Origin: Colwellia sp. 39_35_sub15_T18
GTDB taxonomy: Bacteria > Pseudomonadota > Gammaproteobacteria > Enterobacterales > Alteromonadaceae
Assembly: GCA_002162675.1 (NCBI GenBank)
Contig: MAAE01000004.1
Coordinates: forward strand, 1-64,000
Length of the DNA: 64,000 bases
Direction of reading: 5' to 3'
Below the pieces are notes generated by a model, which was not told where the DNA came from, did not search any database, and saw only the letters and a list, made by a program, of their open reading frames with translations. Below are positions 1,336 through 18,038 of the stretch, piece after piece (the stretch's first letter is position 1; every line of letters begins with the position of its first letter). Position numbers and translations under genes: made by a program.

Positions 1336-2709
1336 CTACTGCACAATAACGCTTTGCCCTTCTTTCAATCTTTCAGCACCACGAATGGCAATGTTATCGC
1401 CGCGTTGTAAATCTCCGACAATAGTGACGCGATCGAAACTGCCTTTACCCACTTTCACTAGTAAACGGTGTGCTTTGTTATCGGCATCAACTTTGACCAC
1501 AAAAGTCCCCTCTTTACGAACAATTAACGCATCGCGGCTAACCGTTAAACTAAGCTGTGTGTCTTGAACAGGCACAGTCACTTTAACCAATTGCCCTGCG
1601 GTCCAAAACTCGTTTAAATGCTCAGGTATCTGAATACGCACTTCAAATGTTTGTGAGCGCGGATCGGTGCTAGGGATCACCGAAGTCACTTGCGTTGATA
1701 TAGCTTGTCCTATCGCTTGTAAATTTAGCTCAAGTCCTTTGCGCACATACGCTAAATATTTAACCGGTACGTATAAGCGTACTTCTAAATGTTCGGTATC
1801 AAGTAACTTTAATAATACCTCGCTACGATTGATATCCGTGCCGGCACGTACCACACGCTCGGTCACTACACCATCAAATGGGGCTTTGACGGTAGCTCTG
1901 CGCAGTTCATCTTCAATTTGCTTTAATTTTAATGTGGCAATTTCACTATCCGCTTGTGCTAATTCATATTGAGATTTAGTTTGATCTAATTGAAATTGTG
2001 ACGTTGAGTTGGTTTTTCTTAACTTCTGCAAACGTTGTAATTCATTATTAAAATAACGCGCGTTGATGCTAGCGCGCTTAATTTGCGCTTTTTGCTCAGA
2101 CTGTTTCAATTGCAACGGCAGTAAGTCCATTTTAGCTAACACATCTCCTTGGCGCACCATAATGCCCGGCTCTTGTAACCATTCTAATCGGCCATCAACA
2201 CCCGCGGTAATATTGACATAAGAGCGGCTATGCAATGTTCCCATTAGATCAGCGGTGGCTGCTAAAGAGATTTCCGTCACTTGGTCTATTTCTACTGGGC
2301 TTGCGGGGGGCTCTGCTGCATTTGCCCAAGAACACGCCAATAATAAACAGACCACTGAACCTATGCTTACTTTTTTAAAGCTAAGGTTTTTGTAACGGCT
2401 CACCACCGAGTCGCGATGCTTCACCGAGGGCTCTACGAGCCTACACCGAGGATTTTCACTGCTCGGTGAAGTGCGTAGCACCTCGGTGCTCTCTGTGGTC
2501 AATATTTTTGAACTGAATAAATACAAACTTCTAAAACTAAGGCTTTTGTAACGGTTCACCACCGAGCCGCGATGCTTCACAGAGGGCTCTGCGAGCCGAC
2601 ACAGAGGCTTTATTATGCTCGGTGAAGTGCGTAGCACCTCGGTGCTCTCTGTGGTCAATATTTTTGAACTGAATAAATACAAATTTTTAAAGCTAAAATT
2701 TTCTAACAT
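1336..2709 (-). CDS. RND efflux periplasmic adaptor (MFP/HlyD-like) with repeat insertion in the signal-peptide region
   Basis: This is the periplasmic adaptor that would link the RND pump encoded just upstream to an outer-membrane channel. From about residue 130 the protein has the usual parts: a lipoyl/barrel half (GVDGRLEWLQEPGIMVRQGD), a long coiled-coil hairpin (about 195-245), the second half (ATVKAPFDGVVTERVVRAG) and a C-terminal beta-barrel. A GAGGAG ribosome site precedes the ATG at 2709. The first residues, MLENFSF, are followed by two 52-residue repeats and then by KKVSIG and a hydrophobic stretch with an LLAC/ANA site. Removing the 312 bases restores a normal signal peptide. As written, the export signal is buried about 105 residues in, so secretion may fail. 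No in-frame ATG lies between the repeats and the hydrophobic stretch. The adaptor assignment is firm, its activity is not. Confidence 0.85.
   Translation of the reverse strand: MLENFSFKNLYLFSSKILTTESTEVLRTSPSIIKPLCRLAEPSVKHRGSVVNRYKSLSFRSLYLFSSKILTTESTEVLRTSPSSENPRCRLVEPSVKHRDSVVSRYKNLSFKKVSIGSVVCLLLACSWANAAEPPASPVEIDQVTEISLAATADLMGTLHSRSYVNITAGVDGRLEWLQEPGIMVRQGDVLAKMDLLPLQLKQSEQKAQIKRASINARYFNNELQRLQKLRKTNSTSQFQLDQTKSQYELAQADSEIATLKLKQIEDELRRATVKAPFDGVVTERVVRAGTDINRSEVLLKLLDTEHLEVRLYVPVKYLAYVRKGLELNLQAIGQAISTQVTSVIPSTDPRSQTFEVRIQIPEHLNEFWTAGQLVKVTVPVQDTQLSLTVSRDALIVRKEGTFVVKVDADNKAHRLLVKVGKGSFDRVTIVGDLQRGDNIAIRGAERLKEGQSVIVQ
2378..2689 (-). repeat. Two tandem copies of a 156-bp element inside a coding region
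   Basis: Copy 1 is 2378-2533 and copy 2 is 2534-2689. The spacing is exactly 156 bases (52 codons), so the frame stays open. Each copy holds palindromic blocks around CTCGGTGAAGTGCG/TAGCACCTCGGTG and ends in CTCTGTGGTCAATATTTTTG. The string TTTTTAAAGCTAA flanks the pair on both sides, which could be a target duplication. A diverged relative lies at about 6055-6168. Confidence 0.9.
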
Positions 2710-2754
2710 AATTTTCTCCTCTCCACATTCTTAACTAAACTTTTAACTAAACTT

Positions 2755-5700
2755 TTAGTTAAGTCGAGCTGATAATGGTGACTCTTTTTGAAGTTCAGCG
2801 TGTAGATCTTCAACGTTATTATTTTGTAAGTCTAGATTTTGATTAGACTCATTACTCGATGATTTTTCCCCCAGCCTTAATAGGCTTGGAAACAACACCA
2901 AAGTAAAAATGGCGCTGATAAACATGCCGCCGACAATCACGGTGGCAAGTCCTCGGTATATTTCGCTGCCAACGCCGGGCATGACCATTAATGGCAACAT
3001 ACCAAACAAGCTGGTTAATGTGCTCATATAAACAGGCCTAGCACGAATACGAATGGCTTGCGCGACAGCACGTCGTCTTGATAAACCTTCTTTTTCAGCC
3101 TGCCTCGTTTGGTCAACAATCAAAATGGCATTGTTTACCACTAAGCCAAGCAAAATAATAAAACCAATCATGGTCAGTAAATCTAACGATTGGTAAGTCA
3201 CTAAATTCAATAAATTTAAACCGACAACACCACCGGCAACAGCTAATGGCATAACCAATAACACCAACAAACTATCTTTAGGTGACTTAAATAATGCCGT
3301 CATTAACAAAAACAAAATCACTAATGCCAAAACAAAGTTTTTGATCATATCGTTAATGGCCGCGGCCATTTTATTGGCATTACCACTGAGTTGAATAGAA
3401 GCCTCAATGGGTAGTTGCTCCTGCATTTTAGGAATAACTTTTTCATTAATGGCGGCTAATGCTTCTTCCATCGACATGGTTGCCGGCGGCGTGATCTGGA
3501 TGCTAATGGTTCTTTTACCGTCAACACGCCTTAAGCTTGTAGGTCCTGCGGTTCTTGAAAGCGTGGTTAACTCTCCGAGTGTTTGAATACCGGCTAAGGG
3601 CGAATGAATGGGCAAAGCGGCTAATTCATCAGGCGTTTGCCACTGCTCACCGCGTAAAATAACATTAACCCTATCGTTACCATCAAAATATTCGCCGATA
3701 AATAAACCACTGGTATAAGCACGAATAGCATTAGCAACATCGCGGCGAGTTAAGCCTGCCTGAGTGATCCGCTGATCTTTAGGAGTCAATTTCAATTCCG
3801 GTTCAGACAAACTTAAGCCCGGATTTGGAAAGGCCGTTGTATCTGCCATCGTATCATTAATAGCATCAATGCCCACTTGTGCTACTGACATTAGGCTTTC
3901 AATATCAGGCCCTTGAACATTAATTTCTACCGTTCGACCATTGCCCCCTCCTGAAACATTGATCATAGAGCCTCGAAACAAGAAAGCTTGCGTATCAGGC
4001 AGCCCCCCTAACACCTCAGAACGAATAACATCCATCAACTCTTCAACCCGTGTTGGGTCTGCCGCATAAATAAATCCGCCCGTAGCACCCGAGCCAAACG
4101 AGTAAAAATTATAGCTTTTTATTTTTGGTGATTTTTCACCCGAAAGATAAGGGGCTAGCCTTTCTTTCACCAGTGAGGCCATTTCTTTTTCAATAAAGTC
4201 AACATTGCCACCAGGCGGCATATCCAAACTAAAAAAGAAGCCGTCAATTGGCGCACGCGGCATAAAGTCGGTTTTAGGCATAAGTAAAACAATCACTAAA
4301 ATAGCGCCGCCCAACAAGAAGGAAATCCAGCTAAGGCGTTTAGTTTGGCTATTAGTTAAACGCATGACTAAGCTGGTTAACTTTTCCCAGTAATGGCCAA
4401 AGGGATCATTATCAATTTGAGCTTTAAGCCAATAGCGACTGGCGATAGGTAAAATAGTAATAGCCGTTACCAGTGAGGCGATAACCGCAATAGAAAGCGT
4501 TAGCGCTAAATCAGAAAATAATTGCCCTTCAATACCGGCCATAAATAAAATAGGTAAAAATATGGCAACACTGGTGGCTGTAGAGGCAAATAATGCGCCG
4601 GTAACTTGCAACGCGCCGCGCATTACCGCCTTGTTACCGTCCATCCCTAAACCACGTAGCCGTACTATATTTTCTTGTACTATAATGGCGGCATCTAACA
4701 CTAGGCCAACAGAAAAAGCTAGACCCGCTAACGAGATAACATTCAGGCTACGATCAAAAACACTTAAAGCCACAAAAGCCACCATGAGTGAAATAGGAAT
4801 AGTCACCGCTATGATGAGAATATTCCGCCAACCACGTAAAAATAACCATAGAATAATCAAGGCTAAGACTATCCCTAAACCAAGATTGTTTTGCACTAAT
4901 TTCAAGGCATTACGAATATGCACGGAGGAATCAAAACTGAGTTCAATAACCAAACCCGCGGCTTTCAATGGCCCGTCATTAAGATCTTTTATGGCGATGT
5001 TTATTTCATCTAATAGCGCGACAGTATTAGCATCATTTTGCCGTTTTAAGGTGAAGTAATAGGAAGGCTGACCACTTCTCATATTAAAGCCAAAACGATC
5101 CACCAGAGTATTTTCAACGCTGGCAATATCTTTTAAATAAATTGGTCGTTCACCGCTGTAACCAATGATCATTTCGGTTAAATTACTAACATCATATTGC
5201 CCTGAAAAGCGCACGGTATATTGACGTCGACCCACATTAGCAACACCGGCAGAAACATCGCTGGCACGGGCAATGGTTGAGCTAATATCGGCCAGTGATA
5301 AACCTAATGAAGCAGTGCGCAAGGGATCAAAAGTTATTCTTAATTCCCTAGGGCGGTGGCTCTGTAAATTTACCTGCCCCATACCTTGAATGCGAGAAAA
5401 CCTTGGCCGCACCACATCTTCTATCAATTTTTGATATTGACCTAGGTCTTGTGCTGGATTATCAGGTAAGGTTTTTATCATTAAAGAGGCGGTATTAGGT
5501 CCCCCTCGCCCGCCACCAGCAGACACGATAGGATCCATGGCATCAAGTGGTATCGGTGGCGCTTGATTAAGGTTATTAATGACATCAAGCATGGCTTTTT
5601 GCATGTCAGCACCAACATCAAAGGTCAGCGTTATATTACCAAAACCACGGCGAATATTAGTGGTCACCTTAGTGACACCTTGAGTATTCTTAACCACATT

Positions 5701-5904
5701 TTCAATCGGCTCAATAATCACCGATTCCATTTCAGCAGGGGCTGCACTTCGCCAACCGGTAAAAATATTAATTTGTGGCTGTTCAATGTCTGGGGTTAAT
5801 TGAATGGGTAACTTGAAAACACTCATCAAGCCAAACACCATCACCAAAGCAACAATGACAATAATAGCCGCAGGATTTTTTAAAGCGGTACGAGTTAAAT
5901 TCAT
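2755..5904 (-). CDS. RND-family efflux permease (HAE1-like)
   Basis: An inner-membrane, proton-driven pump subunit of 1049 residues, the usual length for the family. TM1 is at about 13-33, then come the first periplasmic loop, TM2-7 (about 338-560), the second large loop and TM8-12 (about 860-1010). The TM4 motif reads GLVLDAAIIVQEN: one of the two acidic residues normal in AcrB-type pumps is Ala here. The TM10 motif is GLVVNNAILIVD, with Asn where AcrB has Lys. The permease gene precedes its adaptor gene by 45 bases, the reverse of the common order. No outer-membrane factor gene is adjacent. Substrate cannot be told from sequence; the arsenic operon starts divergently 490 bases away, but a link is only speculative. 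Confidence 0.9.
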   Translation of the reverse strand: MNLTRTALKNPAAIIVIVALVMVFGLMSVFKLPIQLTPDIEQPQINIFTGWRSAAPAEMESVIIEPIENVVKNTQGVTKVTTNIRRGFGNITLTFDVGADMQKAMLDVINNLNQAPPIPLDAMDPIVSAGGGRGGPNTASLMIKTLPDNPAQDLGQYQKLIEDVVRPRFSRIQGMGQVNLQSHRPRELRITFDPLRTASLGLSLADISSTIARASDVSAGVANVGRRQYTVRFSGQYDVSNLTEMIIGYSGERPIYLKDIASVENTLVDRFGFNMRSGQPSYYFTLKRQNDANTVALLDEINIAIKDLNDGPLKAAGLVIELSFDSSVHIRNALKLVQNNLGLGIVLALIILWLFLRGWRNILIIAVTIPISLMVAFVALSVFDRSLNVISLAGLAFSVGLVLDAAIIVQENIVRLRGLGMDGNKAVMRGALQVTGALFASTATSVAIFLPILFMAGIEGQLFSDLALTLSIAVIASLVTAITILPIASRYWLKAQIDNDPFGHYWEKLTSLVMRLTNSQTKRLSWISFLLGGAILVIVLLMPKTDFMPRAPIDGFFFSLDMPPGGNVDFIEKEMASLVKERLAPYLSGEKSPKIKSYNFYSFGSGATGGFIYAADPTRVEELMDVIRSEVLGGLPDTQAFLFRGSMINVSGGGNGRTVEINVQGPDIESLMSVAQVGIDAINDTMADTTAFPNPGLSLSEPELKLTPKDQRITQAGLTRRDVANAIRAYTSGLFIGEYFDGNDRVNVILRGEQWQTPDELAALPIHSPLAGIQTLGELTTLSRTAGPTSLRRVDGKRTISIQITPPATMSMEEALAAINEKVIPKMQEQLPIEASIQLSGNANKMAAAINDMIKNFVLALVILFLLMTALFKSPKDSLLVLLVMPLAVAGGVVGLNLLNLVTYQSLDLLTMIGFIILLGLVVNNAILIVDQTRQAEKEGLSRRRAVAQAIRIRARPVYMSTLTSLFGMLPLMVMPGVGSEIYRGLATVIVGGMFISAIFTLVLFPSLLRLGEKSSSNESNQNLDLQNNNVEDLHAELQKESPLSARLN

Positions 5905-6168: not shown

Positions 6169-6402
6169 ACTGTTAAATTACGCTTTCAAAAAAGAACCCT
6201 TTTTAAAAGTTTGAAAGATAACCAACACACTGCAGGTCTCTTTTTACTGCTCACTTTCGAATTCTATAACGAAAGTATCACAAAGAAATAACATTTTCTT
6301 ATTCCCCTAAAAATGGGTTGCTCTGCCCGTTGATGTGCAGTAATTTTATCCAAATTAACGAGTACACATAAACAACTAAATTTAACCTATTGAGTGAGTG
6401 TA

Positions 6403-7266
6403 ATGAAAATGAAGCTAAAAACTAATCAACAAGACGTCAGTAAGATACTTAAAAAATTATCTTTTTCAGTCATCGCTTTATCGATGACCTTGGTTTCGGT
6501 AAATGCCTCAGCGGGTGCTTGGGTCGGTGAGAAAGGGAAAGGTTATGTAAAGTTAGGTTATGCCGATTATGATTCAAATACCTACCGAGGCGATGATCCT
6601 TCGTTTGAGAGCTTTAAGGGTCAAAACACCTCAATTTATGCCGAGCACGGTTTAGGCAATGACTTCGCTCTCTACGGCTCACTGTTATACCAATCTTATG
6701 ATCAAGTCGACACTATTACCGGTACAAGCAGTGCTAGCGGCTTTAGCGATACTGAAATAGGCCTTCGTTATCAATGGCAAGCAGACCCCTTTGTATTATC
6801 AACCTCTTTTCTAGTTAAAACCCCTTTTTTATATGAAAAAGAAGACGGACTCGGTAACGGCCAAGAAGACTATGAAGTTAAAGTTTTATTAGGTCGAGGC
6901 TTAGATGAATATGGTTATATCGGTGCCGAGTTTGGTTATCGCTTGCGCAGTGGTGAACCATCAGATGAATATCGTTATTTGATTGAGTATGGCTTTAATA
7001 TCAACAAGAACATGTATTTTCGTACCAAGTTAGACGGCATCTTAAGTGCAGAAAATTCTGACGTAACAAATACCGCAATTTCAGGTAATTTATCAAACCC
7101 GTTAGAATTCGATTCAGGAAAGGTTGAGTTAACAACGGGTTGGAATTTCAATAAAAACAGTTCATTGCAAGGTTTTGGGCTTGAATTAACCTATACCCGC
7201 GAAATTTACGGCAACAACATTCTTGAAGGTAATAGTATTCAACTAGGTATTACTAAGGTTTATTAA
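6403..7266 (+). CDS. Outer-membrane beta-barrel protein, first gene of the arsenic operon
   Basis: The start is taken as ATG 6403; an in-frame GTG at 6394 would add three residues. A signal peptide ends near VNASA at about residue 37. The mature protein of about 250 residues is made of alternating short amphipathic strands rich in Tyr, Gly and charged turns and ends in ...IQLGITKVY, typical of barrel proteins. It is likely a porin-like or surface protein. Only three bases separate it from the next gene, so it belongs to the ten-gene operon. I cannot assign a substrate. Export or anchoring of the operon's product is a guess from context. Confidence 0.6.
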   Translation: MKMKLKTNQQDVSKILKKLSFSVIALSMTLVSVNASAGAWVGEKGKGYVKLGYADYDSNTYRGDDPSFESFKGQNTSIYAEHGLGNDFALYGSLLYQSYDQVDTITGTSSASGFSDTEIGLRYQWQADPFVLSTSFLVKTPFLYEKEDGLGNGQEDYEVKVLLGRGLDEYGYIGAEFGYRLRSGEPSDEYRYLIEYGFNINKNMYFRTKLDGILSAENSDVTNTAISGNLSNPLEFDSGKVELTTGWNFNKNSSLQGFGLELTYTREIYGNNILEGNSIQLGITKVY

Positions 7267-7269
7267 ATC

Positions 7270-8772
7270 ATGTCGTTAATTGGTTCGTTAGTACTCGCTA
7301 CTCATTTTTTATTATTAGGGATTTTATCCTTATTTGGTCTACATCGTTTATCTATGGTGATGCGTTGGTTTCGTTATCGAACATTTGCACCCAAAGCACC
7401 GGCAACGTTTAAAGAGTTGCCCAAAGTGACCGTGCAGATCCCACTGTATAATGAAAGATTAGTGGCGAAAAGAATTGTTGATACTATTGTCTTGCTTGAA
7501 TACCCTAAAGATCGTTTACAAATACAAATTGTTGATGATTCAAATGATGATACTAGCGCTTTAATTGCCGAACGTGTCTTACATTACCAGCAGCAAGGTT
7601 TTAATATTGACCATGTACAACGAACCAATCGTCGTGGCTTTAAGGCGGGTGCGTTAAAAGATGCCATGGCCACGGCAGATGGTGAATTTATTGCTATTTT
7701 TGATGCTGACTTTATTCCAAGTGCTGATACTTTATTAAAGAGCATTCATTATTTTACCCAAACTGATATTGCCATGGTGCAATTACGATGGGAGCATTTG
7801 AACCGCCGTAGTAGCCTGTTAACAAAAACACAAGCTATCATGCTGGACGCGCATTTCGCGCTTGAACAACAAGTACGTTGCGCTAGCAATATGTTGTTTA
7901 ACTTTAATGGTACCGCGGGCATTTGGCGAACCGCCGCCATTATCGATGCCGGGCATTGGAGCGCAGATACCTTAACTGAAGATCTTGACTTAAGTTATCG
8001 TGCCCAACTGGCGGGTTGGAAGATGCAGTACTTAAACGAAGTGACTTGTCCGGGTGAATTACCTGCCGATATGAATGCCTTTAAAACTCAGCAATACCGT
8101 TGGGCTAAAGGTGGCGTACAGGTAATGCTGAAAATGCTGAAAACGGTGTGGCAAGCAAAAATCCCTTTCATTAAAAAAGTTGAATCGACTTTTCATTTAT
8201 CAAATAACTTAGCGTATTTGGTAATGTTACTCGATACCTTATTGTTCTTATTACCTAGCCTATATTTACGCGCAAAGCACGACTTTGTAAATATATGGTG
8301 GTTGGATGTCACCTTATTGTTAATGTCTTCAGGCGGCCATATTGCCTATCTATATTTTGGTCAAATTGTTTTAGGTCGTTCAAAAATTCGTGCCTTAGCT
8401 AAAGTGCCCAGCTTAGTTTTGTTAGGCATACAACTGGCCATTAATAATGCTAAAGCTGGCTTGGAAGCCTTAATGGGTAAAAAAAGTGAATTTGTCCGTA
8501 CGCCAAAAACCGGTGAGTTAGCACAAAGTAGCAATAGCCACGATGGTAATAGACAGCAAACATTAACATCAAAAAACAGCTCCCATTATAAGCCTTTGCC
8601 GCCTAAAGGTGCGCTGTTTGAATTCCTTATTGCCGTAATATATATGATGGTTTTCGTGTGGGCTATCACTTATCAACATTGGTTTATGTTGCCGTTTATT
8701 TCGCTGCTAGCGCTTGGCTTTGTTATGTCTGCAGTCAATAGCTTTTATAGCCATTATCAGCTGTCTAGATAA
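7270..8772 (+). CDS. Membrane GT2 glycosyltransferase (cellulose/mannan-synthase-like)
   Basis: This inner-membrane processive-type family 2 glycosyltransferase has 500 residues. An N-terminal membrane segment (about 5-30) is followed by the GT-A domain with DDSNDDT (89-95), DADF (145-148), TEDLDLSYR (236-244) and QQYRW (274-278), the full D, D, D, QxxRW set. Two C-terminal membrane blocks lie at about 312-375 and 455-490. The closest general type is the CESA-like beta-glucan or glucomannan synthase group. The gene starts 3 bases after the barrel gene and is followed within 8 bases by another membrane glycosyltransferase. Sugar donor and acceptor are unknown; the arsenic context suggests glycosylation of a lipid or arsenosugar product. 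Confidence 0.85.
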   Translation: MSLIGSLVLATHFLLLGILSLFGLHRLSMVMRWFRYRTFAPKAPATFKELPKVTVQIPLYNERLVAKRIVDTIVLLEYPKDRLQIQIVDDSNDDTSALIAERVLHYQQQGFNIDHVQRTNRRGFKAGALKDAMATADGEFIAIFDADFIPSADTLLKSIHYFTQTDIAMVQLRWEHLNRRSSLLTKTQAIMLDAHFALEQQVRCASNMLFNFNGTAGIWRTAAIIDAGHWSADTLTEDLDLSYRAQLAGWKMQYLNEVTCPGELPADMNAFKTQQYRWAKGGVQVMLKMLKTVWQAKIPFIKKVESTFHLSNNLAYLVMLLDTLLFLLPSLYLRAKHDFVNIWWLDVTLLLMSSGGHIAYLYFGQIVLGRSKIRALAKVPSLVLLGIQLAINNAKAGLEALMGKKSEFVRTPKTGELAQSSNSHDGNRQQTLTSKNSSHYKPLPPKGALFEFLIAVIYMMVFVWAITYQHWFMLPFISLLALGFVMSAVNSFYSHYQLSR

Positions 8773-8780
8773 TCTTAAAA

Positions 8781-10349
8781 ATGACTCTGTATTCCATAAA
8801 GCCAAACCTAACCAAAGTAACTAAGTCTTGGCTTTATTTTGGTAGTTTGGCTTGTGTAGTACTGCTCAGCTTTGCCAGTAATTTTTTGTCTGCAATAGCA
8901 CAAGGCCAGAGCGCACTTTCTGTTGAAAATATAGGTGTTTACACCATCATTCAATATTGTTTGATGGCCTTTTTTATGTTGTTGGCTTGGTTTACATCGC
9001 CAAAATCATCACAGTTAAAAAACTATAAAGCCTTATTAATCACCGCTTTTTTAGTGCGTATCGTCTTAATTGATGTCACTCCTTATACCTCTAACGACGC
9101 CAGTCGCTATTTATTTGATGGCCGCATTGCTTATGAAGGTTTTGATCCTTATCGCATTAGCCATGATGCTGAAGAGTTAACGCAATTACGTGCTAAGTGG
9201 CAGCCGCCACAAGAGCATGCGACTTATGTCACCATTTATCCGCCCTTGGCCTTAGCTTTATTCTCTTTTTCGTCTTCATTTGGTGTCGACCACGCTGAGT
9301 TAGCCTGGAAGTGCTTATTATTACTGGCTGGGTTACTCACCGTTTGGATCTCGGCTTTGGTACTAAAAAAAGCAGCAAAGTTAGAAAACTTGCCGCTAGT
9401 GGCTTTATCACCCTTGCTTATTCTAGAAACAGGCGTCGGTTTACACCTTGACGCTTTTTCTGCCCTCGCGGTTATTAGCGCGCTTTATCTATGGCAACGA
9501 CAATTACTTTTATATTGTGGTGTCGCCATTGGCATCGGTATGTCATTAAAAGTGCTACCGGTCATGTTGTTGCTGCCATTGTTTTTTTTACAAAAATCAC
9601 TAAAACACTCCTTTACTTTAGTGCTTGGCTGGGTTGTTACCCTAGCCCTCATTTACGGTGCCACGGTCACTTTAGGCTATTTACCCGTTGGCAGTATTGG
9701 CGTGTTTTTTGAGAAATGGCGCAACGCTGCCCCTGTTTTTATGGCCTTAGAGAGCCTGTTTAGCGGTGTTCAACTCGTCGTAGCGTTAATTATTATTACC
9801 ATAACGACGGTGCTCATCATTGCTTATATAAGTTTTAAGCAAGATAGCGACACCCAAACGAATCCCAAAAATAATCCCAGAAAAAATACCGATACTATCT
9901 ACCTCTGCATGCAAGCGTCTTTGGCTTTACCTCTTATTTTAAGTCCGGTGCTCTTTCCTTGGTATTTAATGCCATTAATACCCTTATTAGCCTTACGACC
10001 TAATATTTTTTTACTCGCTTGGTCATTACTGATGCCACTGACTTATGAAGTGCTGGGCGACTTTCTTTGTTGTCAGCAATGGCAGCCTGCTCATTGGCCG
10101 ACAGTATTACTGGCAGTTTTGTATGCTTTAACTGTGCTTAAAATAATCTATTACAGCATTACAAAACATAATGAAAAACAGCGTAAAAAGAAGAGCAAAC
10201 TCGATGAATCCTGTCCAACCGGCACCTTGTCTTTTGCCGAAATAAATAGAAAAACCTCTGCCGTGATAAAAAAAGACACTTTAGCTGCTAGCCCTGTGCA
10301 AATGGCAGAAAGATCGCTTGGCGACATTAACATAATTGAGATTAAATAA
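8781..10349 (+). CDS. Polytopic membrane glycosyltransferase (GT87/MptB-like)
   Basis: A 522-residue protein with roughly ten or more membrane segments between residues 15 and 465 and a charged C-terminal tail. An early loop carries NDASRYLFDGR, GFDPYRI and YPPLA, resembling the acidic DxxxYxxdGr and G-x-PY loops of polyprenyl-phosphate-sugar-dependent (GT-C fold) mannosyltransferases. Such enzymes move a sugar from a lipid-phosphate carrier on the outer face of the membrane. The stop overlaps the next start by one base (TAATG), and the next gene is a Dpm1-like enzyme that could make just such a lipid-linked donor. The family is inferred from layout and loop motifs. Confidence 0.65.
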   Translation: MTLYSIKPNLTKVTKSWLYFGSLACVVLLSFASNFLSAIAQGQSALSVENIGVYTIIQYCLMAFFMLLAWFTSPKSSQLKNYKALLITAFLVRIVLIDVTPYTSNDASRYLFDGRIAYEGFDPYRISHDAEELTQLRAKWQPPQEHATYVTIYPPLALALFSFSSSFGVDHAELAWKCLLLLAGLLTVWISALVLKKAAKLENLPLVALSPLLILETGVGLHLDAFSALAVISALYLWQRQLLLYCGVAIGIGMSLKVLPVMLLLPLFFLQKSLKHSFTLVLGWVVTLALIYGATVTLGYLPVGSIGVFFEKWRNAAPVFMALESLFSGVQLVVALIIITITTVLIIAYISFKQDSDTQTNPKNNPRKNTDTIYLCMQASLALPLILSPVLFPWYLMPLIPLLALRPNIFLLAWSLLMPLTYEVLGDFLCCQQWQPAHWPTVLLAVLYALTVLKIIYYSITKHNEKQRKKKSKLDESCPTGTLSFAEINRKTSAVIKKDTLAASPVQMAERSLGDINIIEIK

Positions 10350-11101
10350 TGTATAAAGGTCATAAAGTTGCCGTTGTTATTCCGGCGCTCAATGAAGAAA
10401 AAGCCATTGGTGTGGTGGTCGGTAATTTAATGGCTTTAAGGTGCGATGAGCTGAACGTTATTGATGATATTGTTGTCTGCGATAACGGCTCAACGGATAA
10501 TACCGCGCAAGTCGCCCGTACCAAGGGCGCACAAGTCGTACGACAAACAACGCCTGGTTATGGCATAGCCTGTTTAACCGCCATAGCGCAACTTCCTGCT
10601 TGCGATATTGTGCTTTTTGTTGATGGTGACGATTCATGTTTTGCCGAACAAGCACTAGGGTTATTAAGCGGTATTGTTAATGGCGACGACCTCGCCATTG
10701 GCTCTAGAACATTGGGCATTATTGAGTCGGGTGCGCTCACTAAACCGCAATTATTTGGTAATTGGCTGGCGAGTCATTTAATCACCTTATTTTGGCGACA
10801 AAAAATAACGGACTTAGGCCCATACAGAGCCATACGTTTTTCATCGCTGCAGGCTTTAAATATGGTCGATAAAACCTTTGGCTGGACGGTAGAAATGCAA
10901 GTTAAAGCGATTATTCATGGCATGACGGTTAATGAATACTCGGTTGACTCTAAAGTACGTATTGGTCAATCAAAAATTAGCGGTACTATTATCGGTTCAA
11001 TTAAAGCGGGCATCGGTATTTTATCAATGATCGCCAAACTGTTTATACGCCAATCAGCCCTTAAGAGTTCGATAAAGCCTAAGGTCAACAGCTGTGAATA
11101 A
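10349..11101 (+). CDS. GT2 glycosyltransferase, dolichyl/polyprenyl-phosphate sugar synthase-like
   Basis: This 250-residue GT-A enzyme opens with VAVVIPALNEEKAIG, then DNGSTDNT (45-52) and DGDDS (92-96), the nucleotide-sugar and metal-binding motifs of Dpm1-type transferases. It lacks the long C-terminal membrane pair of ArnC/GtrB types but has a hydrophobic patch at about 210-235. The likely reaction is transfer of a hexose from a nucleotide sugar to polyprenyl phosphate. Type 2 rSAM/selenodomain-associated transferases are also GT2 proteins, so it could be the functional equivalent of those. It overlaps the DUF547 gene by 8 bases. Confidence 0.75.
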   Translation: MYKGHKVAVVIPALNEEKAIGVVVGNLMALRCDELNVIDDIVVCDNGSTDNTAQVARTKGAQVVRQTTPGYGIACLTAIAQLPACDIVLFVDGDDSCFAEQALGLLSGIVNGDDLAIGSRTLGIIESGALTKPQLFGNWLASHLITLFWRQKITDLGPYRAIRFSSLQALNMVDKTFGWTVEMQVKAIIHGMTVNEYSVDSKVRIGQSKISGTIIGSIKAGIGILSMIAKLFIRQSALKSSIKPKVNSCE

Positions 11102-11984
11102 AGGCCGCTCTTTCATTGTTGTTGTCGTTCTTATCGGCATCGCTATTGGTGTCGCTATGGCCCTCAAAGGCTACTCACTTTATCAAGCGACCCGCGCTAA
11201 TGCGGTGGTTTATTGGCAAGCCAGCGACGAAAGCAACCAACAAAAAATTACCCACGGTTTATGGCAAGCGTTTTTATCAAGCTACTTGAGTGATGATAGT
11301 CGCGGCTCACGTACCTTAGATTATCAAAGCGTGACGAAACAAGATAAGCAAAAGCTCAGCGACTATATCAACACATTACAGAGCTTAGACCCAAGGCGAT
11401 ACCCCAAAAACGAGCAATTGGCTTATTGGGTCAATTTATATAATGCCCTAGTTATTAATCTGGTGCTGAGACACTACCCTATTGATTCAATTAAAAATAT
11501 TGGCGACGGTTTAACGGGTCCTTGGAATATAGAGCTAGCCACCATTGCAGGTAAACAGGTGACCTTAAACCAAATAGAACATGGTATATTAAGGCCTTTA
11601 TGGCAAGACAATCGCATTCATTATGTCATTAATTGCGCCAGCATTGGTTGTCCTGATTTACCACCACAGCCGTTTTCAAGCGTTAACATTAACAAACAGT
11701 TAAATGAGGCCGCCATCCGCTTTATTAACCAGCACAAGGCGGTGCAGTTAGCGAATAACACCTTAACGCTTTCTAGCATCTATAACTGGTTTGCTGTTGA
11801 TTTTGGCAGTTCAGATCAAAATATTATCAAACATATCAAAGCTTATGCCCTGCCAGAGCTGAAAAGCGAACTTGAACATTTTTCAGGCACCATTGAATTT
11901 GATTATAACTGGAAATTAAATTCGACAAAGCAGGTCTCTATAAAAGCGCCAATGATAAAAGCGCCGATGACAAAAAGTCATTAG
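11094..11984 (+). CDS. DUF547 domain protein, membrane-anchored
   Basis: The start is a GTG inside the preceding gene. The protein has 296 residues: an N-terminal hydrophobic anchor or uncleaved signal (about 7-25), then a DUF547 domain with YWVNLYNALVIN (111-122) and INCASIGCPDL (179-189). The conserved Asn and two Cys of the family are present. DUF547 has no established reaction, and its Cys-containing core recalls papain/transglutaminase-like folds. DUF547 proteins recur near radical SAM and type 1/type 2 transferase genes, which fits this operon. Presence of the domain is clear, function is not. Confidence 0.8.
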   Translation: MNKGRSFIVVVVLIGIAIGVAMALKGYSLYQATRANAVVYWQASDESNQQKITHGLWQAFLSSYLSDDSRGSRTLDYQSVTKQDKQKLSDYINTLQSLDPRRYPKNEQLAYWVNLYNALVINLVLRHYPIDSIKNIGDGLTGPWNIELATIAGKQVTLNQIEHGILRPLWQDNRIHYVINCASIGCPDLPPQPFSSVNINKQLNEAAIRFINQHKAVQLANNTLTLSSIYNWFAVDFGSSDQNIIKHIKAYALPELKSELEHFSGTIEFDYNWKLNSTKQVSIKAPMIKAPMTKSH

Positions 11985-12007
11985 CGATACATAAGTTGTG
12001 ATTAAAA

Positions 12008-12799
12008 ATGAACCTAATAAAGCCGAGTAGCATGACACAAAGCCAATTAAGCCGACCAGAGCAGCTAAAGCAACTAAAGCAGTTAAAGCAACGAAATAAA
12101 AGGCCATTAAACGAGCCAACCTTGGTGCTTTTTTGCAAGCGTCCTAAGCTAAACCAAGGCAAACAACGCTTAGCTGAAGACTCTACTGCCGAAAGCGCCC
12201 TTAAAATAGCACAGGCACTATTAGCTTGCGCCATTGAAGATGCAAACGCTTGGCAAGGGCCGGTGGTTATTGCTTGCTCAAACAATAACGATATTGAGTG
12301 GGCACAATCTCTAGCCAATAACATACAAGTGATAACGCAATTACCTGCAGGGAAGTCGGGCAATCTAGGTGAGCGATTAAATTACGTTGACCGCCAATTG
12401 CGCGCGCAAGGGCACCAAAAATTAGTGATTATTGGTACTGATGCACCAATACTCGATAACGAACATTTTCAAGCGGCTATCTTCGCGTTACAAAGCCATG
12501 ATATTGCTTTAAGTCATGCTGATGATGGCGGCGTCGTGATTATGGCGAATAAAGTGCCTTGGCCAATGTTAACCGATTTACCGTGGAGTACTAACGAATT
12601 ATCACAGTCATTATTGTTGCACTGTCAGCAACAAAAACTCACGGTGCAATATAGTTTACCCGGTTATGATGTTGACTATATTACTGATCTTAAAAAACTT
12701 TTTATTGACCTACAAACTGATCTGCGCCCAGCACGACAAGCACTATTACAGACAATTAACGAATTTTTTGCTATTCCAGAGGTAATTTCCCATGCATGA
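12008..12799 (+). CDS. CofC-like transferase, arsenosugar/rSAM-selenodomain-associated type 1
   Basis: A 263-residue protein with the small GT-A/nucleotidyltransferase fold. Motifs are FCKRPKLNQGKQRLA (42-56, the nucleotide-binding loop), LGERL (120-124), GTDAPIL (143-149), ADDGG (171-175) and PWSTNEL. These match the family once called rSAM/selenodomain-associated transferase 1 (TIGR04282) and since linked to arsenosugar synthesis. Members are thought to work on the sugar produced after ArsM and the radical SAM step. The first 33 residues are extra to the domain and contain a Lys-Gln-Leu repeat from a short DNA repeat at about 12065-12090. It overlaps arsM by 8 bases. Confidence 0.85.
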   Translation: MNLIKPSSMTQSQLSRPEQLKQLKQLKQRNKRPLNEPTLVLFCKRPKLNQGKQRLAEDSTAESALKIAQALLACAIEDANAWQGPVVIACSNNNDIEWAQSLANNIQVITQLPAGKSGNLGERLNYVDRQLRAQGHQKLVIIGTDAPILDNEHFQAAIFALQSHDIALSHADDGGVVIMANKVPWPMLTDLPWSTNELSQSLLLHCQQQKLTVQYSLPGYDVDYITDLKKLFIDLQTDLRPARQALLQTINEFFAIPEVISHA

Positions 12800-13913
12800 T
12801 ATTGTAAAAGACTATTACGGCAACGTACTTAAAGGCTCTGATGATTTACAGACCAACGCTTGCTGTACCGACGACAACTTGTCGTCATCACTCAAAGTTA
12901 TCCTATCAAACATTCATGATGAGGTGATGTCACGTTATTACGGTTGCGGCCTTGTTACCCCTGAGCTACTTGCCGGTTGTCATGTTTTAGATTTAGGTTG
13001 TGGCGCTGGCCGAGACTGTTATGCCATGGCACAAATGGTTGGCGAAACAGGTTTTGTGACGGGTGTTGACATGACCGATGAGCAGTTGGCCGTTGCTAAT
13101 CAACATGTAGAGTATCATCGCGAAAAGTTTGGTTATGAAAAAGCTAATACCAAATTTTTAAAGGGCTATATTGAAAAACTCGATGAGCTAAACATTGCCG
13201 ATAACAGTATCGACGTGGTCATCTCTAACTGTGTTATTAATTTAAGCCCCGACAAACATGCGGTACTCAACGAAATATTCCGTATTTTAAAACCCGGTGG
13301 TGAAATATACTTTTCTGATGTTTACGCCGATAAACGCGTACCCGCGCACTTAAAAGACGATCCGTTATTATATGGCGAATGTTTAAGTGGTGCCCTTTAT
13401 TGGCATGATTTTGAAAATTTAGCTAAAAGCGTCGGCTTTGTTGAGCCACGTTTAGTAAATAGCCGTGCGATTACCATTGATAATAACGAGCTAGCGACAC
13501 GCATTGAAGATGTAAATTTCACCTCGGCAACCTATCGATTATTCAAGGCTGAAGGGTTAGAGACAGACGGACAAAATTACGCGCAAACAGTGACCTACCA
13601 AGGCACTATTATCGAGCACGAGGCAATGTTAACGTTAGATCAAAAAAACACCTTTATTGCTCAGCAAGCCACTAACATTAGCGGCAATACCTGGCATACA
13701 CTCAAGCAATCTAGATTTGCTGAGCACTTCGTGTTTAACGGCGACTTTAGTAAACACTTGGGGTTATTTGCCGCAACTGATGAGCAATTCGACTTTATTG
13801 ATGATCACGCAGAAAATCACGCAAGTGCTCCATCAAGTAATAACAGTACATCATCAAGTTGCTGCGCTCCTGCTCCAGCTCCTGATCAAAAAAATAAATC
13901 GAGCTGCTGCTAG
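12792..13913 (+). CDS. arsM: Arsenite S-adenosylmethionine methyltransferase ArsM
   Basis: The enzyme methylates trivalent arsenic with S-adenosylmethionine, giving mono- and dimethylarsenic. The protein has 373 residues. The class I methyltransferase domain shows HVLDLGCGAGRDCY (64-77), VTGVDMT (89-95) and LKPGGEIYFSDVY (166-178). The arsenic-binding cysteines of the family are in place: C24/C25 near the N-terminus, C147 in SNCVINLSPDK and C197 in GECLSGAL. A low-complexity tail of Ser, Ala and Pro carries two more Cys pairs at the very end. The gene overlaps its neighbours on both sides, the radical SAM gene starting within the stop codon, so tight co-expression is expected. Confidence 0.92.
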   Translation: MHDIVKDYYGNVLKGSDDLQTNACCTDDNLSSSLKVILSNIHDEVMSRYYGCGLVTPELLAGCHVLDLGCGAGRDCYAMAQMVGETGFVTGVDMTDEQLAVANQHVEYHREKFGYEKANTKFLKGYIEKLDELNIADNSIDVVISNCVINLSPDKHAVLNEIFRILKPGGEIYFSDVYADKRVPAHLKDDPLLYGECLSGALYWHDFENLAKSVGFVEPRLVNSRAITIDNNELATRIEDVNFTSATYRLFKAEGLETDGQNYAQTVTYQGTIIEHEAMLTLDQKNTFIAQQATNISGNTWHTLKQSRFAEHFVFNGDFSKHLGLFAATDEQFDFIDDHAENHASAPSSNNSTSSSCCAPAPAPDQKNKSSCC

Positions 13914-14830
13914 TGACAACTTTAGCTAAAAGTGACAGCTGGTTATATACGCCCTCAGGTGAAACACGAGGCTATATTCAACCCCATGCCTTAACTGAAC
14001 TTTGGTTCCATACCGGCACTAAGTGCAATTTAGCCTGTGATTTTTGTTTGGAGGGTTCAAGCCCGTCGGATAAGCGTTTATTAACACCCAAATTGGCCGA
14101 GGTGAAACCGTTTATTGATGAGGCATTAAGCTTGGGTGTTGAACAATTTTCTTTTACTGGTGGCGAACCATTTTTAGCGAAAGACATCATCGACATACTT
14201 GATTATGCTTCACAATTTAAACCTTGCTTAGTGTTAACTAATGGCACCGACCCTTTGCTGAAACGCTTTGATGCCTTACTAGCTCTGCAAAAGAAAAATC
14301 AACACCCTATCTCTTTTCGCATCAGCATTGACTCGCCCACTGAGCAAACTCACGATCAAGGCCGTGGCACTGGCACGTTTACTAAAGCCTTCATTGGTAT
14401 GCGCTTATTACACAACCATGGTTTTAATGTTTCGCTTGCTCGTCATATCGCTAAAGATGAAAACACCGCTTTAGTTGAGCAACAATACAAAGATTTGTTT
14501 GAACTGAATGGTTTGTCTCGTGACATGCTCATGGTGGCTTTTCCTGATTTTTTAACGCCAGGCTCATTGCCTGATGTGCCACATATCACCACAAAATGTA
14601 TGACAAGCTACCAAAATGAAACACAGCGTAAGCAATACATGTGTGCAAATTCAAAAATGATCATCAAAAAAGATGACGAAATGCAGGTATACGCCTGCAC
14701 ACTTGTTGATGATGATGATGACTACTTTTTGTCAAACTCTTTAACACAAAGTATGAATAAAAAAGTTAATTTAAAACACCACCGTTGCTATAGCTGCTTT
14801 GCCTTTGGCGCCAGCTGTAGTGAAATGTAA
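13913..14830 (+). CDS. Radical SAM protein of the arsenic operon (not classical ArsS)
   Basis: A GTG start overlaps the arsM stop (TAGTG). The 305-residue protein carries the radical SAM cluster motif as C38-x3-C42-x2-C45, a glycine motif FTGGEPF and a barrel core. The C-terminal third holds several more cysteines, ending CYSCFAFGASC, which suggests an auxiliary metal site of the SPASM/twitch kind. In known arsenosugar pathways a radical SAM enzyme (ArsS) adds a 5'-deoxyadenosyl group to dimethylarsenic. Classical ArsS has a CxxxCxHCH-type motif followed by DAGP, which is absent here, so this is either a different enzyme for the same step or a different chemistry. ArsL of arsinothricin synthesis is another possible relative. 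The family is certain, the reaction inferred. Confidence 0.8.
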   Translation: MTTLAKSDSWLYTPSGETRGYIQPHALTELWFHTGTKCNLACDFCLEGSSPSDKRLLTPKLAEVKPFIDEALSLGVEQFSFTGGEPFLAKDIIDILDYASQFKPCLVLTNGTDPLLKRFDALLALQKKNQHPISFRISIDSPTEQTHDQGRGTGTFTKAFIGMRLLHNHGFNVSLARHIAKDENTALVEQQYKDLFELNGLSRDMLMVAFPDFLTPGSLPDVPHITTKCMTSYQNETQRKQYMCANSKMIIKKDDEMQVYACTLVDDDDDYFLSNSLTQSMNKKVNLKHHRCYSCFAFGASCSEM

Positions 14831-14839
14831 GGAAGTAAT

Positions 14840-15262
14840 ATGAAATCTATACTATTTTTGTGTACCGGTAATTCTTGTCGAAGCCAAATGGCGCATGGTT
14901 TTGCCAACTCATTGTTAAGCGAGCAATTTATTAGCTACTCAGCGGGTATTGCTGCCCACGGGTTAAATCAATCCGCCGTGCAGGTGATGAACGAAGTAGG
15001 CATAGATATTAGCCAGCATCAATCCCAAACCTTAAGCGAATTTGATACCGAACAGTTTGACTACGTGGTGGCTGTTTGTGAACATGCTGCCAGCAACTGC
15101 CCTACCTTTCCAGCAAAAACAAATGTTATTCTTCATCAGTTTGACGATCCCCCTAAGCTCGCCAAAAAAGAAACAACACCCGAAGGCGCTTTATCTCACT
15201 ACCGACGGGTCCGTGATGAAATTAAAACTTGGATCACCGAATTACCTACACAAATAAATTAA
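14840..15262 (+). CDS. arsC: Arsenate reductase, low-molecular-weight phosphatase/thioredoxin type
   Basis: The protein reduces arsenate to arsenite. Its 140 residues match the family. The phosphatase loop is CTGNSCR (C8-x5-R14), and the second and third redox cysteines lie in VCEHAASNCP, as in thioredoxin-coupled ArsC. FDDPPKL supplies the downstream Asp region. The ribosome site GGAAG sits just before the ATG, nine bases after the radical SAM gene. It would feed arsenite to ArsM. No arsenite efflux pump and no ArsR gene is found in the window, unlike an ordinary ars resistance operon. Confidence 0.9.
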   Translation: MKSILFLCTGNSCRSQMAHGFANSLLSEQFISYSAGIAAHGLNQSAVQVMNEVGIDISQHQSQTLSEFDTEQFDYVVAVCEHAASNCPTFPAKTNVILHQFDDPPKLAKKETTPEGALSHYRRVRDEIKTWITELPTQIN

Positions 15263-15290
15263 CTTACCTAACCTAAACTAATTCAACCTA

Positions 15291-15350
15291 AAAAAAGCTA
15301 AACGAAGCTAAACGAAGCTAAACGAAGCTAAACGAAGCTAAACGAAGCTA
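15291..15350 (+). repeat. Tandem array of a 10-bp unit
   Basis: Five perfect copies of AACGAAGCTA fill 15301-15350, preceded by one variant copy (AAAAAAGCTA, 15291-15300). The array sits in the 115-base gap between arsC and the phosphorylase gene, the only wide gap inside the operon. Confidence 0.95.
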
Positions 15351-15377
15351 AATTAAATCAAGAATAGGAAAAATATC

Positions 15378-16226
15378 ATGTTAGCAATTATTGGCGGTAC
15401 TGGTGTTTATGGCATTGACGGTTTAAAGATCATTGAACAACACAACATTGATACCCCTTACGGTGAACCATCGGCTGCCATTGTGCGAGGTATGTACCAA
15501 AACAAAGAGATTCTTTTTTTACCCCGCCATGGTGAAACACACTCACTATTGCCTTCTGAAGTAAATTATCGCGCCAATATTTGGGCACTTAAAAGCTTAG
15601 GAGTTAAACAAATTATTGGCTTGTCTGCGGTGGGTAGCTTGCAACAAGAAATAAAGCCCGGTGACTTAGCCATTGCTGATCAATACTTTGATTTTATCAA
15701 AAGCCCTCGTGACAAAACCTTTTTTGGTCAAGGCTTGGTCGCACATATTTCTACCGCCGAACCCACATGTACTGCGTTGGCTGACGCCATAACTACCGCC
15801 GCCAATACTTGCTCGATAAACATTCATCGCAACAAAACCTATGCCTGTGTTGATGGCCCCCGATTAGGCACAAAAGCGGAAAGTTTATTTCTAAAAAACG
15901 CCGCGGGTTGCGACTTAGTGGGCATGACTAATGTCCCTGAAGTTTTTTTAGCGCGCGAAGCGCAAATTTGTTATTGCACCATAGGTATCGCCACCGATTA
16001 TGACAGCTGGAAAGATGATCCCAGCGAACATGTGACAGTAGAACAAGTGATTAGCCGTTACGGTGACAGTATAACGAAAGCAAAAAACGTACTGGAATCT
16101 TATATCAAAGGACTGCCCGCACAATGTACTAGTGGCTGTAACCACGCCTTAGCAAGTGCCGTATTAACCCCTGTTGATACCATGTCTGCTGAGCAAAAAA
16201 CGTTATTTTCTGTGCTATCAAAGTAG
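15378..16226 (+). CDS. MTA phosphorylase-like nucleoside phosphorylase, last gene of the arsenic operon
   Basis: A 282-residue member of the PNP/MTAP (type 2) phosphorylase family. Visible motifs: IIGGTGVYGI (4-13), PRHGETHSLLPSEVNYRAN (49-67) for phosphate and sugar binding, VGMTNVPEVFLARE (181-194) and ATDYDSW (205-211), whose aspartates recognise adenine in MTA phosphorylases. The usual substrate is 5'-methylthioadenosine. Placed after ArsM and a radical SAM enzyme, it could instead cleave 5'-deoxy-5'-dimethylarsinoyl-adenosine to adenine and an arsenoribose-1-phosphate. The segment near 159-163 reads DGPRL, a small departure from the common form. The family is sure, the arsenic substrate is inference. 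Confidence 0.85.
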   Translation: MLAIIGGTGVYGIDGLKIIEQHNIDTPYGEPSAAIVRGMYQNKEILFLPRHGETHSLLPSEVNYRANIWALKSLGVKQIIGLSAVGSLQQEIKPGDLAIADQYFDFIKSPRDKTFFGQGLVAHISTAEPTCTALADAITTAANTCSINIHRNKTYACVDGPRLGTKAESLFLKNAAGCDLVGMTNVPEVFLAREAQICYCTIGIATDYDSWKDDPSEHVTVEQVISRYGDSITKAKNVLESYIKGLPAQCTSGCNHALASAVLTPVDTMSAEQKTLFSVLSK

Positions 16227-16316: not shown

Positions 16317-16859
16317 ATGCCTTCAAAAATACAACTTAGCAAAGAAGACCTTAGAAAATACAAGCCAAATAGAGATGAATACTTAAACAAGCCAAAGATT
16401 CCTTTGGTCGTGGTATTAGACAATGTCACTAATAGTTACAACATTGGTGCTTTTATTCGTTTGGCTGATGCTTTTGCTATCGAAAAAGTCATTGTCTGCG
16501 GCGCGCTAACGATTTCAGATAAAAAGCTGAAAAAAGCCTCTAGAAATGAAGCTAAATGGGTTTGCGTTGAATATAGTGATAGCACCACCACAAGCTTACA
16601 AACCCTATTAGATGAAGGGTATGCGGTTTACAGTGTTGAGCTGTGCCATGAGTCAGTTGATTACAGTGACCTTGCTTACCCCTCTCGCTGCGTATTGGTA
16701 TTAGGCAATGAACGCAAAGGCGTGAGTGAAGCCGCATTAAAATTAAGTCACCAACAAATACATATTCCTATGTTTGGTATGGGTAACTCGCTCAATGTTT
16801 CAACCGCCGGAGCAATTGTTTTAGCCGAATGTGCGAATCAAATGAGAAAACAGCAGTAA
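16317..16859 (+). CDS. TrmH/SpoU-family RNA 2'-O-methyltransferase
   Basis: A SPOUT-fold RNA ribose methyltransferase of 180 residues with no N-terminal substrate-binding extension beyond about 28 residues. Motif 1 is NVTNSYNIGAFIR, motif 2 LVLGNERKGVSEAAL, motif 3 IHIPMFGMGNSLNVSTA, forming the knotted SAM site. It probably modifies a tRNA or rRNA; the exact position cannot be told. It starts 90 bases after the phosphorylase stop and is probably not part of the arsenic pathway. Part of its 3' end is duplicated at 17787-17890. Confidence 0.85.
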   Translation: MPSKIQLSKEDLRKYKPNRDEYLNKPKIPLVVVLDNVTNSYNIGAFIRLADAFAIEKVIVCGALTISDKKLKKASRNEAKWVCVEYSDSTTTSLQTLLDEGYAVYSVELCHESVDYSDLAYPSRCVLVLGNERKGVSEAALKLSHQQIHIPMFGMGNSLNVSTAGAIVLAECANQMRKQQ

Positions 16860-17786: not shown

Positions 17787-17960
17787 TCCAATGAAAAGCG
17801 AAGGCATGAGTGAAGCTGCATTACAATTAAGTCATCAAAAAACACATATCCCTATGTTTGGCATGGGCAACTCTTTAAATGTTTCAACAGCAAGTGACTG
17901 TAATCACGCCTTAGCCAGTGCTATGTCTTTGGATAAAAAACGTTATTTATCATACTGTAA
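17787..17960 (+). pseudogene. Chimeric fragment: trmH end joined to phosphorylase end
   Basis: From 17787 to about 17890 the DNA is a diverged copy of the trmH segment coding GNERKGVSEAAL to LNVSTA. At about 17891 it switches to a copy of the end of the phosphorylase gene (SGCNHALASA ... LFSVLSK), with an internal deletion. The joined frame can still be read as about 80 codons but has no intact domain. It records an earlier duplication of the 15378-16859 region followed by deletion. Confidence 0.8.
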
Positions 17961-18038
17961 GCGTAACCGTTTTTTATTAAGAAAGGTATTCACCACATAT
18001 TTTGTAGAATTGTTAACCTTTATACTCATTTAACCTTT

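Follow-up and report, generated by a model that had tools for sequence, protein, structure and literature searches.

A ten-gene operon in Colwellia that pairs a predicted arsenosugar cassette with membrane glycosylation genes

The first 64,000 nucleotides of contig MAAE01000004.1 of Colwellia sp. 39_35_sub15_T18 (GCA_002162675.1), hereafter the window, contain ten consecutive open reading frames (ORFs) on the plus strand, at positions 6403-16226, in which genes of arsenic biochemistry adjoin genes of membrane glycosylation. We consider it somewhat probable that this operon serves to make an arsenosugar, which then enters a route of membrane glycosylation. The arsenic core of this reading, up to free or phosphorylated arsenoribose, is its likelier part and is judged probable; the transfer of the arsenosugar at the membrane is a reasoned guess, and a doubtful one. 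A first-pass annotation of the same DNA had described a ten-gene operon here, which the ORF listing of the window bears out, and its family labels (ArsC, ArsM, radical SAM, phosphorylase, CofC-like, glycosyltransferases (GTs) and DUF547) agree with family scans. Eight of the nine junctions are overlapping or at most 23 bases wide, and the sole wide one, of 115 bases, separates ArsC from the phosphorylase, the last gene. The gene set is seen again in other genomes, with the operon complete in Colwellia psychrerythraea GAB14E and Pseudocolwellia agarivorans, and is therefore not a product of chance. Comparative genomics divides it into two modules: module A comprises DUF2064, ArsM, the radical SAM protein, ArsC and an MTAP-type phosphorylase, and module B comprises a barrel protein, a processive GT2, a GT-C/GT87 protein, a DPM1-like GT2 and DUF547.

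Every step of the proposed pathway is drawn from family membership and gene neighbourhood. ArsC would reduce arsenate to arsenite, and ArsM would convert arsenite to a dimethylarsenic species. The radical SAM protein, termed rSAM-X here, would take the place of ArsS and join a 5'-deoxyadenosyl group to the arsenic; the product would be 5'-deoxy-5'-dimethylarsinoyl-adenosine (DDMAA). From DDMAA, adenine would be removed by the MTAP-type phosphorylase to leave 5-deoxy-5-dimethylarsinoyl-ribose-1-phosphate, a sugar that the CofC-like DUF2064 protein may activate or transfer. The usual TIGR04283 glycosyltransferase is missing from the window operon; the DPM1/AglJ-type GT2 could load the arsenoribose onto polyprenyl phosphate, and from there the GT-C/GT87 protein, working at the periplasmic face, would transfer it to a lipid or glycan that the processive GT2 helps to make. 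It weighs against an arsenosugar assignment that none of the NCBIfam arsenosugar models (TIGR04167, TIGR04282, TIGR04283 and NF038099) reaches its cut-off in this operon; the DUF2064 protein comes close to that of TIGR04282 (119.5 bits against 134).

A radical SAM family apart from ArsS

rSAM-X (13913-14830, plus strand) matches the Radical_SAM profile and carries a CxxxCxxC motif whose cysteines, C38, C42 and C45, are invariant in 56 members of its family, as are C229, C244, C262, C292 and C295 and, very nearly, C302. The first-pass annotation had taken this gene for the known partner of ArsM, a claim that fails, as by profile it belongs to a different, distantly related family. The ArsS model TIGR04167 gives 44.7 bits against a curated cut-off of 300, and in a profile-profile comparison with ArsS the core alone aligns, at 19% identity; together these results rule out its identification as ArsS. 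BLASTP matches each of the 12 ArsS sequences compared, though weakly, and one of them (L136) aligns with residues 27-303 of rSAM-X at 23% identity. By these comparisons rSAM-X is a distant homologue of ArsS that stands outside the ArsS family, and it is a candidate for the enzyme that adenosylates dimethylarsenite to DDMAA. A CYxC-(6-7 residues)-C pattern is common, by eye, to the C-termini of rSAM-X and ArsS; it resembles the general twitch/SPASM cysteines and was for this reason not used as evidence. The best 120 of 2864 database matches (E 1e-40 or better) are unnamed or bear generic or other radical SAM names (radical SAM protein, MoaA, AslB), and no arsenic-related name appears among the shortened names of these 120. 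Separately, a copy on a Marinobacter adhaerens plasmid (L172, 6001-6886) matches in two pieces, has no annotated coding sequence and looks broken.

Neighbourhoods of rSAM-X were catalogued for the best 80 of at least 236 relatives in genome contigs, 41 of which have 6 kb on both sides. Near these 41 well-flanked loci, DUF2064 was found in 29, a TIGR04283-type GT2 in 25, ArsM in 19, MTAP and a TVP38-like gene in 11 each, ArsC and DUF547 in six each, and GT87 in five; at least one of ArsM, DUF2064 and TIGR04283 is present in 35. ArsM, a radical SAM protein, DUF2064, GT2 and the phosphorylase occur together in several phyla, and by its gene content module A is a coherent, predicted arsenosugar cassette. 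This recurrence, along with the presence of the same phosphorylase subfamily beside canonical ArsS, upholds the earlier view that the arsenic half of the operon is biosynthetic. Two observations count against it, namely that ArsM lies nearby in just those 19 loci, and that six of the 41 (L071, L103, L106, L113, L114 and L124) have none of the core genes. A FAD-oxidoreductase query matched near 19 of the 41; because it also matches ordinary dihydrolipoamide dehydrogenases, as in L048, this count was not used as evidence.

Across 61 relatives, strong matches to rSAM-X (at least 56% identity), ArsM and MTAP all fall in the same six genomes, some weaker radical SAM match being present in 51. The overlap of rSAM-X and MTAP would have a chance of 1.8e-8 if the two were independent, a value that is indicative only, given the relatedness of the genomes. 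Of 274 genomes of the class, 137 have ArsS (134 over the cut-off) and six have rSAM-X (one of them, G262, weak at 187 bits), and no genome has both (chance 0.015). Similarly, ArsS was found in one (G363, the genome of L107) of 48 genomes, these being the searched part of 50 picked from the 80 rSAM-X loci. As coexistence is this rare, these data suggest that rSAM-X and ArsS replace each other across genomes. As a side observation, 134 of 274 genomes over the cut-off is more than expected for a rare arsenosugar trait, and the function of the NCBIfam ArsS model family may deserve review.

Three other proteins of module A score below the cut-offs of their curated models. The DUF2064 protein (12008-12799, plus strand), a CofC-like nucleotidyl- or glycosyl-transferase, matches the TIGR04282 profile over its full length and PF09837 at 61.6 bits, with 3cgx as its sole solved match; the CofC-like label holds, with the refinement that the TIGR04282 score stays under the cut-off. 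The protein is fused to ArsM in Colwellia psychrerythraea GAB14E (L027 and L053, one genome) and in L049, and to a TIGR04283-like GT2 in L089, as checked by blastp. The ArsM-type arsenite methyltransferase (12792-13913, plus strand) has a Cys-rich tail and scores 191.4 bits with PRK11873, whose subfamily cut-off is 263. Its C24, C25, C52, C147 and C197 do not vary across 40 aligned rows; we take them to correspond to the cysteines that bind arsenite and relay the disulfide cascade in known ArsM proteins. The thioredoxin-type arsenate reductase ArsC (14840-15262, plus strand; LMWPc/ArsC) scores 141.6 bits with TIGR02691 (cut-off 174.3), and C8, C13, R14, C80 and C87, presumably its catalytic cysteines and arginine, are invariant in 10 rows. 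In both alignments gapped cells were set aside, and a few rows come from one genome twice. The gap that follows ArsC contains a plus-strand tandem repeat of 5.8 copies of a 10-base unit (15295-15352).

The membrane module and its link to the arsenic genes

Module B, likewise on the plus strand, opens the operon. Its first product (6403-7266, with a GTG start possible at 6394) is a putative outer-membrane barrel protein with an N-terminal hydrophobic segment and an aromatic C-terminus; it has no Pfam or NCBIfam match, and the 11 aligned rows of orthologues (one genome twice) all end in F or Y. It is followed by a membrane GT2 of the processive, PgaC/CelA-like type (7270-8772; Glyco_tranf_2_3, 85 bits), in which D145, D147, D238 and D240 as well as Q274/R277/W278 are invariant in 8 rows. 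The GT-C/GT87-like membrane glycosyltransferase (8781-10349) scores 24.3 bits with Pfam GT87, below the gathering score of 25, and many of the 120 homologues listed carry PF09594 in precomputed Pfam annotation. Its structure model (predicted local distance difference test, pLDDT, 89.7) has a predicted GT-C fold, closest to ALG3, a glycosylphosphatidylinositol mannosyltransferase, chains of, presumably, PIG-U type, ALG6, PimE and ArnT; Foldseek by itself gave the model no match under E 0.001, and a second comparison, with VIA, was clear. The protein is expected to use a polyprenyl-phosphate sugar. The adjoining GT2 of AglJ/DPM1 type (10349-11101), a candidate polyprenyl-phosphate glycosyltransferase, is nearer to AglJ (117.8 bits, cut-off 325) than to TIGR04283 (38.8 bits, cut-off 182), and scores 72.5 bits as a dolichyl-P hexose transferase (cut-off 375). 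The module ends with a DUF547 protein (11094-11984; PF04784, 86.9 bits) that has an N-terminal hydrophobic segment and in which H176, C181 and C186 are invariant in 9 rows. The GT-C/GT87 and AglJ/DPM1-like proteins together look like a polyprenyl-phosphate glycosylation route, as in systems of the PimE, ArnT and ALG3 type, where a DPM1-like GT2 is paired with a GT-C protein; the window differs in that its pair is linked to arsenic genes.

Several relatives have an additional gene between GT87 and GT2 that is absent from the window operon. In L046 (4238-6592) and its relatives this gene encodes a YpdA-like flavoprotein fused to a NapH-like ferredoxin domain; it is carried by L046, L048, L049, L147, L164, L169, L170 and L171 (L048 and L164 are one genome). 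Domains were scanned in L046 and L147, and the others were assigned by likeness to L046 or by position and size.

GT87 was found in 9 of 394 genomes of the order, distributed over four genera with six of the nine in one genus. The rSAM-X gene is present in all nine, and in eight (the window genome, G199, G396, G416, G494, G507, G520 and G657) GT87 lies in one operon with ArsM and rSAM-X. The earlier proposal that the arsenosugar is passed on to a glycolipid or glycan thus stands as regards the company the genes keep; that the membrane glycosyltransferases move an arsenosugar is plausible, no more. Outside the order, the cassette of an alphaproteobacterial metagenome-assembled genome (MAG) of the Kordiimonadaceae (L117) is flanked, on the opposite strand and in a different arrangement, by GT2b-, GT87- and DUF547-like genes. 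Moreover, DUF547 lies beside canonical ArsS in L152, next to DUF2064 (TIGR04282) and TIGR04283 genes that both pass their cut-offs (209.4 and 270 bits).

The best-surviving alternative, which we hold to be quite possible though short of probable, is that one transcript serves two functions. Module A would make a soluble arsenosugar for detoxification and module B an ordinary, non-arsenical envelope glycan or glycolipid, their pairing being due to co-regulation or to a chance fusion that a few families have inherited. What keeps this explanation alive is the Pseudoalteromonas plasmid pPBSW1 (L171), on which a barrel, GT2, GT87, YpdA-like, GT2, DUF2064 and TIGR04283-like GT gene (130.7 bits, cut-off 182) lie together, that is, module B without DUF547; no arsM or MTAP is annotated or was found in this 25 kb stretch, and the 906 kb pPBSW1 record yields no radical SAM hit at E 1e-30, the chromosome lying outside the collections searched. 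DUF2064 can thus be accompanied by most of module B where no arsenic genes adjoin. Glycosylation genes lying apart from arsM in related genomes were what the first-pass annotation had named as evidence against its own reading; such a neighbourhood occurs this once. Two further observations point the same way as the plasmid: the modules are on different contigs in G451, a MAG, and module A alone is more widespread than the two combined, with GT87 in only five of the 41 well-flanked loci. A separation of functions sits less easily with the occurrence of rSAM-X in every GT87-bearing genome of the order, even with six of the nine in one genus, with the differently arranged GT2b-, GT87- and DUF547-like genes around the L117 cassette, or with DUF547 beside canonical ArsS.

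The phosphorylase and the chemistry of the core

The last gene of the operon (15378-16226, plus strand; PNP/MTAP) encodes an MTAP-family phosphorylase with a GPRLG motif, whose score of 284.1 bits with TIGR01694 is above the curated cut-off of 274.85. Because 195 of 274 genomes of the class have an MTAP-like gene, little can be argued from mere presence; MTAP co-occurrence in general was accordingly set aside as proof of a pathway, and only the phosphorylase subfamily and its neighbours were used. After the window's own genome and G199, the best matches among the 274 genomes are in G285 (56%) and G168 (49%), where the phosphorylase genes lie directly downstream of canonical ArsS, and the GPRLG motif is common to all three enzymes. 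In 25 aligned MTAP rows, GPRLG[TS] is found in 19 (17 genomes) and the other six have GNRFS, GPQFS or GPRLE, whereas the four solved MTAP chains aligned have GPRFS or GPQFS; among solved chains, RsfP and MTAPs such as 1v4n and 2a8y are the nearest. An MTAP match lies within 6 kb in 20 of the 80 rSAM-X loci, and GPRLG is present in 16 of the 18 that cover the motif. In a tree of the 25 rows, 19 (17 from rSAM-X operons and the two adjacent to ArsS) form one group with support of 93/97. The window enzyme therefore shares the TIGR01694 assignment of known MTAPs and differs from them in its motif and in grouping with ArsS-adjacent enzymes. The motif and the ArsS neighbours suggest a substrate other than methylthioadenosine (MTA), and the protein is a good candidate for an arsenosugar-dedicated phosphorylase that would release adenine from DDMAA.

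Several findings temper this assignment. G285 and G168 both belong to one bacterial family (f133), and no MTAP was found in the three other ArsS regions examined (L152-L154), so the pairing of ArsS with the phosphorylase belongs to one lineage. Two Kiritimatiellae rSAM-X loci have a GNRFS MTAP, and of the six MTAP-bearing relatives, G058 and G052 have a distant MTAP (39%) of GPRLE type that is encoded elsewhere in the genome. The tree support of 93 is below the tool's mark of 95, the root is a midpoint root and controls are few, and the tool warned that long branches meet between the MTAP group and the L148/L149 controls. As the two phosphorylases adjacent to ArsS are from a single family, our estimates for the arsenic core and for the overall reading were lowered to those given at the outset.

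For the same reason more weight, though still not enough to lift it out of the unlikely, was given to a housekeeping role, in which the phosphorylase clears 5'-deoxyadenosine or MTA from S-adenosylmethionine enzymes and stands outside any carbon-arsenic pathway. The enzyme does pass the TIGR01694 MTAP cut-off, and radical SAM enzymes commonly release 5'-deoxyadenosine. However, an adenosylating radical SAM enzyme would not be expected to release it stoichiometrically, and the subfamily occurs with two radical SAM families that are distant from each other and that each sit with arsenosugar genes. Moreover, 34 of 37 searched genomes of the genus have no MTAP match at E 0.001 (with the MTAP query only).

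The chemistry of rSAM-X itself could also differ from that proposed, in that it might form another carbon-arsenic bond, such as the ArsL-like transfer of a 3-amino-3-carboxypropyl group in arsinothricin, or modify a glycan or peptide. We regard this as improbable. It is favoured by the profile result that rSAM-X is not ArsS and by its nearest solved relatives in sequence and fold: the structure model (pLDDT 90.3) gives generic fold matches, the top ones including SkfB, BlsE, SuiB and viperins, and a sequence search of the PDB returned distant radical SAM enzymes only (17 sequences, best 44.3 bits). An adjacent nucleoside phosphorylase, by contrast, would make sense if the adenosyl group ends on arsenic, and the DUF2064 and TIGR04283 neighbours are common to ArsS clusters (L152, and L153 by weaker matches). 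In the accessible part of PMC8552651, ArsL has 428 residues and transfers the 3-amino-3-carboxypropyl group. The arsQML arsinothricin cluster resembles the window operon in that arsM adjoins a radical SAM gene; that same part of PMC8552651 names no phosphorylase, DUF2064 or membrane GTs in it. Least probable is that the phosphorylase aids arsenate reduction by arsenolysis within a detoxification set of arsenate reduction and methylation: mammalian purine nucleoside phosphorylase is reported, in the portion available of PMC12608789, as an arsenate-reducing enzyme in vitro, but the operon already has an ArsC with all catalytic residues, and its DUF2064 and GT genes would be left unexplained.

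Genomic surroundings and wider meaning

Neither ArsR nor an ars efflux gene (ArsB/Acr3 pump) is found among the ten genes, the rest of the genome not having been searched, and the ten are thus not a classical ars resistance operon, which is recognized by ArsR with an ArsB/Acr3 pump. The earlier remark that no regulator or efflux pump is present holds for these ten genes and needs one refinement, as an RND efflux pump (AcrB family) and an HlyD-type partner lie just upstream (1336-5904) and divergent to the operon. A 156-base tandem repeat (2376-2696) reaches into the first part of the HlyD-like ORF. A promoter scan gave 26 hits against 26.3 in shuffles, no excess, and a terminator scan gave 16 against 12.1 (sd 3.8), of no use for reading the operon. 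Downstream, a short ORF (17791-18033) is assembled from copied pieces, 97 nt that are 85% identical to the end of a TrmH-like (SpoU methylase) gene (16711-16807) followed by 29 nt that are 90% identical to part of the end of the phosphorylase gene (16131-16159); it looks like a rearranged duplication scar. A 93-residue remnant of a Pit-type phosphate transporter (25743-26024; PF01384, profile end) adjoins a DUF5060 gene (26032-27819), and in C. psychrerythraea GAB14E a DUF5060 gene and a 396-residue transporter-like gene come directly after the operon. On the minus strand, genes for a NapH-like polyferredoxin and a FAD-dependent reductase (21877-25057) match, by their N-terminal letters, genes immediately upstream of the operon in L053, and because of that position the operon seems to have shifted in place relative to them.

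Arsenosugars and arsenolipids occur widely among marine organisms. Xue (2019) and Cheng (2021) reportedly described the ArsM and ArsS arsenosugar pathway in Synechocystis. That arsenosugar synthesis begins with ArsM and the radical SAM enzyme ArsS is stated in the accessible parts of PMC8552651 and PMC12159101. The window operon resembles that pathway in combining an arsenic methyltransferase with a radical SAM protein, and differs in its distinct radical SAM family, its phosphorylase and its membrane glycosylation genes. We found no title or abstract opening that describes this operon, the rSAM-X family or the phosphorylase in arsenosugar synthesis, in a search that left subscription journals mostly uncovered and covered only the top of some result lists. 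In the algal scheme, as given in the accessible part of PMC10456119, adenine is removed by a proposed nucleosidase; a phosphorylase subfamily that accompanies both rSAM-X and its distant relative ArsS offers a concrete, testable gene for this step. If rSAM-X functions as proposed, genomes without ArsS would join the predicted makers of arsenosugars, and a membrane module that acted on arsenoribose would constitute a bacterial route to envelope-bound organoarsenic. In its most far-reaching form, which is speculative and rather unlikely, marine Alteromonadales and their relatives would make polyprenyl-phosphate arsenoribose via a second arsenic adenosyltransferase, only distantly related to the first, and a dedicated DDMAA phosphorylase, and the GT-C protein would install it on an envelope lipid or polysaccharide. 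Were that the case, arsenic would be covalently built into a glycan of the bacterial surface.

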